Assembly: GCF_002407065.1 (NCBI RefSeq)
Contig: NZ_CP023564.1
Coordinates: forward strand, 2,976,001-3,040,000
From: Brachybacterium ginsengisoli
Lineage (GTDB): Bacteria; Actinomycetota; Actinomycetes; Actinomycetales; Dermabacteraceae
Direction: 5' to 3'
DNA length: 64,000 bases
Part shown: piece after piece, positions 14,204 to 16,028 of the stretch
Numbering within the stretch: position 1 is the stretch's first letter
How the letters are laid out: each line of letters starts with the position of its first letter
Position numbers and translations under genes: made by a program
The notes under the pieces: model-generated
Databases searched by the model: none
Seen by the model: the letters and a program-made list of their open reading frames with translations, nothing else
What the model was told of the DNA's origin: nothing

Positions 14204-14256
14204 GGCGGGATCTTCCGCTCACAGCGGAGGCCCCGGCGGGTCGTGCCCGGGCGGCG

Positions 14257-14262
14257 TAGCGT
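14257..14262 (+). promoter_or_regulatory. -10 element TAGCGT for the XRE gene (leaderless)
   Basis: TAGCGT ends exactly 6 nt before ATG 14269. No ribosome site is present, so the transcript should begin at or next to the start codon. Confidence 0.55.
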
Positions 14263-14268
14263 CGCCCC

Positions 14269-14607
14269 ATGACCACGCTGGAGCCCCTGCTGCGCGAGCT
14301 GCTCGGCCAGGCGCTGCGCTCCCGACGCCGGGAGCACGGCCGCACCCTGGCCGATGTCGCCGCGCAGGCGGGGGTGAGCATGCAGCACCTCTCGGACGTC
14401 GAGCGCGGCCGCAAGGACGCCTCGAGCGAGATGCTCGCCGCGATCTGCGGGGCGCTCGGGCTGAGCGTCGCCCAGCTGATGGCGGCCGCGGCTCAGCTCC
14501 CCGCCCGGCCCGTCCTGCTCGACCTCACGCGCACACCGGAGATCGGGAGCAGGACGGTCCGGCAGGCCGGCGCCCTGCACGGCGGCGTCATGCTGTCGGC
14601 CGCCTGA
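14269..14607 (+). CDS. XRE-family regulator of the ClgR/PopR type
   Basis: 112 residues with a Cro/C1 helix-turn-helix at about 16-70. The block GRTLADVAAQAGVSMQHLS followed by DVERGRKDASSEMLAAIC closely resembles the actinobacterial Clp regulators ClgR and PopR. Those activate clpP operons and are themselves Clp substrates. The gene faces the clpP pair on the opposite strand, and its last 20 bp overlap the last bases of the second clpP. The C-terminus ends in small residues (VMLSAA), like a Clp-recognised degron; that is an inference. Confidence 0.82.
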   Translation: MTTLEPLLRELLGQALRSRRREHGRTLADVAAQAGVSMQHLSDVERGRKDASSEMLAAICGALGLSVAQLMAAAAQLPARPVLLDLTRTPEIGSRTVRQAGALHGGVMLSAA

Positions 14608-15187
14608 GCAGGATCTCGTCGGCCAACCCGTACTCCACGGCCCCGGCCGCGTCGAGCACCCGCTCGCGCTCGAGATCCGCCCGCACCTGCGCGGGCTCCC
14701 GCCCCGTCGCCTCGGCCAGCAGCTGCTCGAGCTGCCCGCGCACCCGCGCCACCTCCTCGGTCGCGAGGATCAGGTCGGGCACCGCGCCGCGTCCGCTCGC
14801 CTCGAGCGGCCGCAGCACCACCCGCGAGTGGGGAAGCACGGCGCGCAGGCCGGGCGTCCCCGCGCCGAGCAGCAGCACTGGGGCGGCGACGACCTGACCC
14901 ACGCAGGTCACCGCGACCGGACAGCGCACATAGTCGAGCGCGTCATGGATCGCGAGCACGGACTGCACGTCCCCGCCCTCGGAGTTGAGGTAGATCTGGA
15001 TCGGGGCGTCGCGGGACTCGTTCTCCAGGTGCAGCACCTGGGCGATGACGGTGTTGGCCACGCCGTCGTCCACCGCGGTGCCGAGGTAGACGATGCGGTC
15101 GGTGAGCAGGCGGGAGAAGATGTCCGCCGTCCGCTCGCCGCCGCCGGTGGTGCGCTCGATGACGCTGGGGATCGTGTAGCTGCTCAT
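14588..15187 (-). CDS. Catalytically degenerate ClpP paralogue
   Basis: 199 residues with the ClpP fold (RIVYLGTAVDDGVAN, IQIYLNSEGGDV, AVEYGLADEIL). By eye alignment all three catalytic residues are replaced: the serine of the GQAAS motif is A101 (GQVVA), the histidine of the RVMIH motif is R126 (RVVLR), and the aspartate of ERDRF is E175 (ERERV). It cannot work as a serine peptidase by the normal mechanism and probably forms a mixed ring with the active ClpP encoded just upstream, to whose stop its start is fused (ATGA overlap). Confidence 0.85.
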   Translation of the reverse strand: MSSYTIPSVIERTTGGGERTADIFSRLLTDRIVYLGTAVDDGVANTVIAQVLHLENESRDAPIQIYLNSEGGDVQSVLAIHDALDYVRCPVAVTCVGQVVAAPVLLLGAGTPGLRAVLPHSRVVLRPLEASGRGAVPDLILATEEVARVRGQLEQLLAEATGREPAQVRADLERERVLDAAGAVEYGLADEILLRRPTA

Positions 15188-15801
15188 CGGCCGAGCCCCG
15201 TCCGTCGGCCGGCCGGCGCCAGCGGCAGGATCTGGCCGAGGTCCGTGATCACCTGGTCGCAGAACCCGTAGGCGACGGCATCCTGGGCGGACCAGAACCG
15301 GTCCCGCTCGGAATCCCGCGCGATGGTCTCGCGGGGCTGCCCCGTCCGCACGGCGGTGATGTCGATGAGCAGATCGCGGTTCGCGCGCAGGTCCTCGGCC
15401 TGGATCTCGATGTCCGCCGCGGAGCCGCCGAAGCCGGACGATCCCTGGTGCATCAGCACCCGCCCGTGCGGGAGGATGCCGCGCTTGCCGGGCGTGCCGT
15501 GGGTGAGCAGGTACTGGCCGGCGCTGTAGGCCATGCCCAGCGCCACCGTGCGCACATCGCACGGGACCAGGTCCATGAGGTCGCCGATGGCGAGCATGGC
15601 GGGCACCAGCCCGCCGGGCGAGCTGATCAGCAGGGTGATGTCGCTGGTGGGATCCTCGGCGGCCAGGAGCAGCAGGCCGGCGCTGAGCTGGGCGCCGTTG
15701 TCCTGGTCCAGCTCGCGGTCCAGCAGGAGCACCCGCTGGTGGAGCAGTCCGAGGGCGGTGCGGTCGACGAGGGCGGGCGGTGATGCGGCGGTGGTGGTCA
15801 T
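15184..15801 (-). CDS. clpP: ATP-dependent Clp protease proteolytic subunit (active)
   Basis: 205 residues with an intact triad: S93 in GMAYSAG, H118 in RVLMHQG, D167 in ERDRF. The oxyanion-loop region (ISSPGGLVPAM) is normal. It is the first gene of a two-gene operon with a degenerate paralogue. The active/degenerate composition and the adjacent ClgR/PopR-like regulator suggest the accessory clpP3-clpP4 type of locus known from Streptomyces rather than the housekeeping clpP1-clpP2 pair with clpX, which is absent here. Confidence 0.9.
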   Translation of the reverse strand: MTTTAASPPALVDRTALGLLHQRVLLLDRELDQDNGAQLSAGLLLLAAEDPTSDITLLISSPGGLVPAMLAIGDLMDLVPCDVRTVALGMAYSAGQYLLTHGTPGKRGILPHGRVLMHQGSSGFGGSAADIEIQAEDLRANRDLLIDITAVRTGQPRETIARDSERDRFWSAQDAVAYGFCDQVITDLGQILPLAPAGRRTGLGR

Positions 15802-16028
15802 GCCCCGAGTCTCCGCGCGCTCCGCCGCGCCGTCGCCCGTCTCCGCCGTGCGCTGATCAGCTCCCGGCAGAGGCCCCTCGGGAGCGGCCCACGGGTAGAC
15901 TTCCCGGCACGCCGACGGTGCAGGCCCCGGGCATGGAACGGAGCAGCTCCGCCCGGCGGCAGCGCGTCGACCGACGCGCGCCGTCCCCGCCTGGGCCGCA
16001 GCGCCCCGGCCGTCCCCGAGGATGCCTC

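Follow-up and report, generated by a model that had tools for sequence, protein, structure and literature searches.

A probable PopR-controlled backup Clp protease locus of Brachybacterium in which the predicted docking subunit lacks an intact catalytic triad

Streptomyces lividans requires one functional pair of clpP genes, clpP1P2 or clpP3P4. According to the available parts of PMC9765437 and PMC12607617, PopR is a substrate of ClpP1P2 in Streptomyces, and S. lividans ClpP3P4 is expressed when PopR escapes this degradation. In Streptomyces, two C-terminal alanines are described as the recognition element through which ClgR, Lon and sigma-AntA are degraded in a ClpP-dependent manner (PMC9775585 and PMC7142297, accessible sections). 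Regarding the two rings, an aromatic patch on ClpP2 is required by those ATPases that were tested in M. tuberculosis and Streptomyces, and the N-loops of the rings differ (PMC4416901 and PMC9765437, as far as their text was available). Streptomyces ClpP1 combined with a Ser-to-Ala ClpP2 retains full activity (PMC9765437, in the same portions), and degradation in M. tuberculosis is reportedly little slowed by inactivating either ring (PMC4416901, likewise in part), indicating that the two rings do not everywhere divide their tasks strictly.

The window, that is the whole stretch of 64,000 nucleotides analysed from Brachybacterium ginsengisoli, contains a pair of clpP genes facing an XRE-family regulator gene (Table 1). 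The clpPa and clpPb frames overlap by 4 bp (ATGA), clpPb beginning at the stop codon of clpPa in 18 of 19 loci measured, and the regulator gene runs convergently with 20 bp common to it and clpPb. Both ClpPs score far above the Pfam Clp protease (PF00574) cut-off of 20.2 bits, at 172.7 and 172.8 bits. The PDB matches of ClpPa are headed by 6pbu, followed by 4u0g and other entries whose chains carry the name ClpP subunit 1. ClpPb was modelled with AlphaFold2 (mean pLDDT of 81.6, with residues 1-15 below 50), and the 50 PDB matches listed for this model are all ClpP chains, with a query TM-score of about 0.85, indicating that the ClpP fold is kept in the predicted structure. On NF009204, which we take to be the cyanobacterial ClpR model, ClpPb obtained 121.7 bits and did not reach the cut-off of 263. 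The original prediction, made from the letters of this DNA alone, had described the coupled pair, the convergent XRE gene and its 20-bp 3' overlap exactly as recovered here, and its suggestion that the second clpP keeps the fold agrees with a model whose listed PDB matches are ClpP only.

Table 1. Positions of genes and putative signals in the window
Feature	Position	Strand	Basis or remark
clpPa (ClpP3-type, ClpP1-like), 205 aa	15184..15801	-	ORF list, Pfam, alignment
clpPb (ClpP4-type, ClpP2-like), 199 aa	14588..15187	-	ORF list, Pfam, alignment
PopR-type XRE regulator gene, 112 aa	14269..14607	+	ORF list, ClgR model, genus comparison
Ala-Ala codons, regulator C-terminus, degron-like (LSAA)	14599..14604	+	20/21 genus regulators end AA
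Tandem PopR-type operator (putative), two 15-bp dyads TCNGCN5GCNGA	15842..15871	.	-70..-41 of clpPa ATG
Single 15-bp box, kind as in tandem operator (putative)	14214..14228	.	-55..-41 of regulator ATG
-10-like hexamer TAGCGT	14257..14262	+	ends 6 nt 5' of regulator ATG

Alignment placed an intact S93/H118/D167 triad in ClpPa and A101, R126 and E175 in ClpPb where Ser, His and Asp are expected, exactly reproducing the residue numbers proposed originally. All three ClpPb positions thus appear changed in sequence alignment, the level (rather than that of model coordinates) at which the possibility of a complete Ser/His/Asp set at other sites of the protein was judged. ClpPb is a ClpP relative by profile and fold and, judged from its residues, a pseudoprotease. 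Across the genus, ClpPb has Ala at the Ser position and Glu at the Asp position in all 21 loci, and His is replaced by Arg in four (the window, L006, L007 and L009) and kept in 17. ClpPa retains Ser and His in 21/21 and Asp in 20/21, the exception (L012) being shortened by an in-frame stop. In seven pairwise comparisons, dN/dS ranged from 0.05 to 0.23 for clpPb and from 0.04 to 0.22 for clpPa, and these low values indicate that the clpPb frame is under purifying selection. Given this selection and the presence of Ala and Glu in 21/21 loci, the triad change in ClpPb is not a matter of chance. The pair was found in 21 of the 38 genomes of the genus, the window's included, and not found in the other 17 searched, a few of which are incomplete; the family survey found it in one genome of another genus (L065, triad A-S-D). 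The clpPa stop of L012 (G010:C1 near 514838) lies ahead of the catalytic Asp, and clpPb starts with GTG there; this clpPa is either a pseudogene or the product of a sequence error.

The window ClpPb carries the N-loop SYTIP and the patch Q64/Y66/Y86, and ClpPa, with T56/L58/L78, has neither the N-loop Y.IP motif nor an aromatic docking patch. The N-loop together with an aromatic patch (two aromatics) was found in 21/21 ClpPb and 0/21 ClpPa proteins of the genus. In the wider census described below, the N-loop motif occurred in 194/197 ClpP4-type versus 3/195 ClpP3-type proteins, with two aromatics in 171/197 of the former and two or more in 8/195 of the latter. The residue before the catalytic acid, a position that takes part in contacts between the rings, is Arg or His in all 197 ClpP4-type proteins, and the one preceding it is Asp or Glu in 180/197. 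Since ClpPb keeps the features for ATPase docking and ClpPa lacks them, the best assignment is that the ClpPb ring docks and the ClpPa ring cuts.

The window regulator obtained 79.8 bits on the ClgR model NF041677 and did not reach the cut-off of 170. A related XRE gene lies convergently beyond clpPb in all 21 genus loci. Two C-terminal alanines, as found here, are reported to direct PopR degradation as well. The possibility that the Ala-Ala end is an artefact of gene overlap was rejected because L009-L012 and L014 have it without overlap; six genus loci lack the overlap (gap of 59-562 bp), five of these six keep the Ala-Ala end, and the regulator of the remaining one, L013, ends in KVA. Regulator matches at E<=1e-22 were obtained in 21/21 genomes with the pair and in 0/17 genomes without it (some of the 17 being incomplete), the latter giving weaker matches only, with E about 1e-13 to 1e-15. 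Among loci of the ClpP4 clade, the regulator was convergent on the 3' side in 166/192 and ended in Ala-Ala in 157 of the 167 found; none was detected in 25/192, where some stretches end early.

Upstream of clpPa, the window site reads TCTGCC-3N-AGCTGATCAGCG-3N-GGCGGA. The S. lividans PopR site is quoted as TCTGCC-3N-GGCGAATCTGCC-3N-GGCAGA (PMC9775585, available part), and both share the same 30-bp two-dyad layout of 6-3-12-3-6. A degenerate form of this 30-bp pattern has one exact match in the 3.95-Mb genome. Allowing up to one mismatch added two further sites, and a read-backwards control gave no fewer, so no wider regulon is claimed. The 10-bp core CTGATCAGCG was rejected as an operator since it has 50 genome matches (23 forward, 27 reverse) and is too short for meaning. 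A single box stands before the regulator at -55 or -56 from the ATG in 21/21 of the genus, and the window's box likely serves regulator autoregulation. Upstream of clpP3 in the census, a box with the abutting first half of a second was found in 66/198 loci, this 20-bp form not being found in the other 132, and a relaxed pattern of two complete boxes in 45/198, with two controls giving 0/198 each in either case. A single box occurred upstream of clpP3 in 138/198 loci versus 2 in reversed sequence, and ahead of the regulator in 81/164 versus 0 reversed. Three to four 15-bp boxes lie upstream of clpP3 in L007, L008, L013-L016 and L200, indicating that the number of regulator sites varies among species. 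A TANNNT hexamer directly precedes the regulator ATG in all 20 genus loci examined (of 21), a position that suggests a leaderless regulator transcript; such a hexamer was not seen before the clpPa ATG.

The 3.95-Mb genome holds four clpP genes, namely the window pair and a housekeeping clpP1-clpP2 pair near 2.726 Mb with canonical residues. Of its three Clp-type unfoldase genes, the sole short one is a 451-aa open frame beside the housekeeping pair, taken as clpX by size and position and lying about 266 kb from the window pair; the two longer Clp-type ATPases are likewise not near the window. An extra ATPase dedicated to the pair was considered, and none was seen among these three. The region upstream of housekeeping clpP1 does not contain GTTCGC, the start of the Streptomyces ClgR motif. 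Another copy in the genome obtained 111.7 bits on NF041677, below the cut-off of 170. The ClgR-like gene elsewhere in the genome (L055, G000:C1:2612904-2613143) ends in VGAR rather than Ala-Ala, and its turnover may therefore differ from that of Streptomyces ClgR.

Two evenly drawn, partly overlapping sets of genomes were surveyed, 297 from the order and 394 from the class, and 88 and 131 of them, respectively, gave a match at E<=1e-58. From order, class and genus, 197 ClpP4-type proteins were read, and 192 were retained after a tree placed L224, L232, L245, L247 and L248 (all SHD) outside the ClpP4 clade; the ClpP1-like partners of these five stay among the 195 ClpP3-type rows. L249-L256, which score about 200 bits like housekeeping ClpP2, were not counted (L250 is A-H-D, the others S-H-D), and class-survey matches of about 200 bits or less were otherwise left out. 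L250 (G594:C1:8035583-8036173) is a ClpP2-like paralogue from a g113 (Streptomyces-type) genome with Ala at the nucleophile position, and the similar L251 and L252 keep Ser. The triad was changed in 118/192 ClpP4-type proteins, which is not an unbiased frequency because the profile was built from Ser-less proteins, and 74/192 in this sample were Ser-His-Asp, indicating that the module does not require degeneracy. Among other changes, Ser is replaced by Ala, Gly, Trp or Glu, His by Gly or Arg, and Asp by Asn, His, Thr or Glu. The ClpP3-type partners were Ser-His-Asp in 194/194 complete rows (one of 195 being truncated), and a housekeeping ClpP2 sample had the intact triad in 62/62 loci. Housekeeping ClpP1-type rows (41/55 SHD, one S-H-E and 13 incomplete owing to short stretches) were not used as a control.

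When a genome collection was scanned with a g113 ClpP4 query, the best 80 of 409 relatives (79 titled Streptomyces, one 'Actinobacteria bacterium') had ClpP4 Ser-Gly-Asp in 80/80, with ClpP3 intact in 79 and unaligned in one; 16 g113 census rows likewise carry Gly for His. These 80 loci are the best matches of a Gly-bearing query, so Gly is not established for every Streptomyces ClpP4, and their Gly indicates that a changed triad is not special to the window genome. Among these best 80 of 409 is S. violaceoruber, a species closely related to S. coelicolor and S. lividans. In the tree, ClpPb and the Streptomyces-type ClpP4 of g113, which has up to 97% identity with Streptomyces proteins, form one clade apart from housekeeping ClpP2 (SH-aLRT 99). 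This quick tree of 119 rows, with triad columns left out and 46/116 inner branches below 80, needs at least five changes between Ser and not Ser and at least eight between intact and changed; L087 and L182 are intact inside changed clades, so triad regains are possible, many inner branches being weak. L141, L145, L142, L144 and relatives, mostly of family f38, have Glu at the nucleophile position and Asn or His as acid. In their sister rows Ser is retained and the acid is Asn, His or Ser, a pattern resembling a stepwise loss of the triad, acid first.

We consider it likely that the locus encodes a backup Clp protease under PopR control, of the clpP3-clpP4-popR type, with ClpPb as a docking pseudoprotease and ClpPa as the cutting subunit. 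Housekeeping ClpP1P2 and an ATPase would normally degrade the regulator via its C-terminal Ala-Ala. Upon ClpP1P2 failure, the regulator would accumulate and bind both the single box before its own gene and the tandem box ahead of clpPa, switching on clpPa-clpPb. ClpPa and ClpPb would then assemble as a two-ring core, in which the pseudoprotease ClpPb ring would dock ClpX or ClpC via axial N-loops and a hydrophobic patch, and the ClpPa ring would carry the sole active sites. Regulator turnover, activation, heteromeric assembly, docking by ClpPb and cutting by ClpPa alone are thus carried over by analogy from work on Streptomyces and Mycobacterium to the genes, residues, operator-like sites, degron-like end, co-occurrence and purifying selection read here. 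Counting against this reading are the 132/198 clpP3 upstream regions in which the 20-bp operator form was not found, the 25/192 clade loci with no regulator detected (some stretches ending early), the clpPa stop of L012, the VGAR end of the ClgR-like gene, the 74/192 intact ClpP4-type triads and the M. tuberculosis result on inactivated rings. The original prediction had named a dedicated accessory Clp core with a non-cutting subunit, hinging on another clpP in the genome; four clpP genes with a second, intact pair, together with the PopR-type end and operators, point to the same reading. Among the roles it had offered for the degenerate ring, docking is the best supported, the docking features being found only on ClpPb, and the clpX it had noted as missing beside the pair presumably adjoins housekeeping clpP1P2.

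ClpPb could instead be an inhibitory or tuning subunit that docks no ATPase and acts by poisoning or diluting rings made of ClpPa or of housekeeping ClpP. S. hawaiiensis ClpP-ADEP sets a precedent by breaking ClpP1 tetradecamers, and it also pairs with ClpP2 (PMC12607617, available part). However, such a role is unlikely for a protein that has retained the N-loop, Y66 and Y86 for docking, begins at the stop of ClpPa in nearly all loci measured and belongs to a type with a conserved Arg/His, mostly behind Asp/Glu, before the catalytic acid. The pair might also be a decaying clpP1P2 duplicate heading for loss, with the triad changing by drift, as 17 genus genomes in which it was not found (a few incomplete) and the clpPa stop of L012 would allow. 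Against this very unlikely course, clpPb shows dN/dS as low as that of clpPa, the regulator, Ala-Ala end and boxes are retained together with the pair, and every complete ClpP3-type triad is intact. That ClpPb still cuts through an unusual site is extremely improbable: the non-canonical triad of Listeria ClpP1 (Asn) can be active inside a heteromer (PMC9765437, accessible text), but the nucleophile position is Ala in every genus ClpPb, and the window ClpPb has no Ser, Thr or Cys within three residues either side of A101.

With ClpPb as docking pseudoprotease, a wider reading can be drawn, to which we give even chances: in Actinomycetes, the emergency Clp core induced by PopR has repeatedly had its docking subunit turned into an obligate pseudoprotease, through different residues in different lineages, Streptomyces included. 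If so, the backup protease would have seven active sites rather than fourteen, its docking ring would be beyond labelling by active-site poisons, and in the window genus the cutting ring would be without the aromatic pocket used by ADEP-like compounds; such rings would fit the role of a protease induced on blockage of its housekeeping counterpart. How actinobacterial ClpP rings share out their tasks was established with engineered mutants, and here the loss would be natural and repeated, in Streptomyces ClpP4 too. Should S. lividans ClpP4 lack the catalytic His like the 80 loci, viability is already supported by a core in which one ring is non-canonical. The system lends itself to testing the number of active sites that a Clp protease requires and whether ATP-dependent degradation still depends on the non-cutting ring, bears on why the drug sensitivity of the backup core differs, and indicates non-catalytic ClpP subunits beyond the cyanobacterial and plastid ClpR lineage.

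As in actinobacterial ClpP1P2, where ATPases dock on ClpP2 and Streptomyces ClpP1 cuts (PMC4416901 and PMC9765437, in part), docking and cutting would here be divided between two subunits, but the docking subunit ClpP2 keeps Ser/His/Asp in all loci sampled. Cyanobacterial, plastid and apicoplast ClpR similarly is a non-catalytic ClpP paralogue beside an active ClpP (PMC7966870, available part), whereas ClpPb groups with actinobacterial ClpP4 in a tree without ClpR sequences. Listeria ClpP1 also has an altered triad (Asn for Asp) in a bacterium with two ClpPs; by contrast, its acid alone is reported changed and its triad turns active in the heteromer (PMC9765437, available part). In the available parts of PMC9765437, PMC12607617, PMC9775585, PMC8182300, PMC7142297, PMC4416901 and PMC7966870, no statement on ClpP4 triad residues was found, and no priority is claimed for the triad loss of ClpP4, the original subscription papers lying outside the literature scope. 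The nearest layout is Streptomyces clpP3-clpP4 with popR, as originally proposed and now supported by clade, regulator end and operators. Both have a ClpP1-like and ClpP2-like pair, a convergent popR-type gene and a separate clpP1P2, the Ala-Ala end occurs in 72 of the best 80 Streptomyces-type loci, and a two-dyad operator lies upstream of clpP3 (PMC9775585, in part). They differ in that ClpP4 of those best 80 loci has Gly for His, whereas in the window genus Ser and Asp are changed, and His in 4/21. The locus is a Brachybacterium-type form of Streptomyces clpP3-clpP4-popR, in which the predicted docking subunit has lost its catalytic residues.
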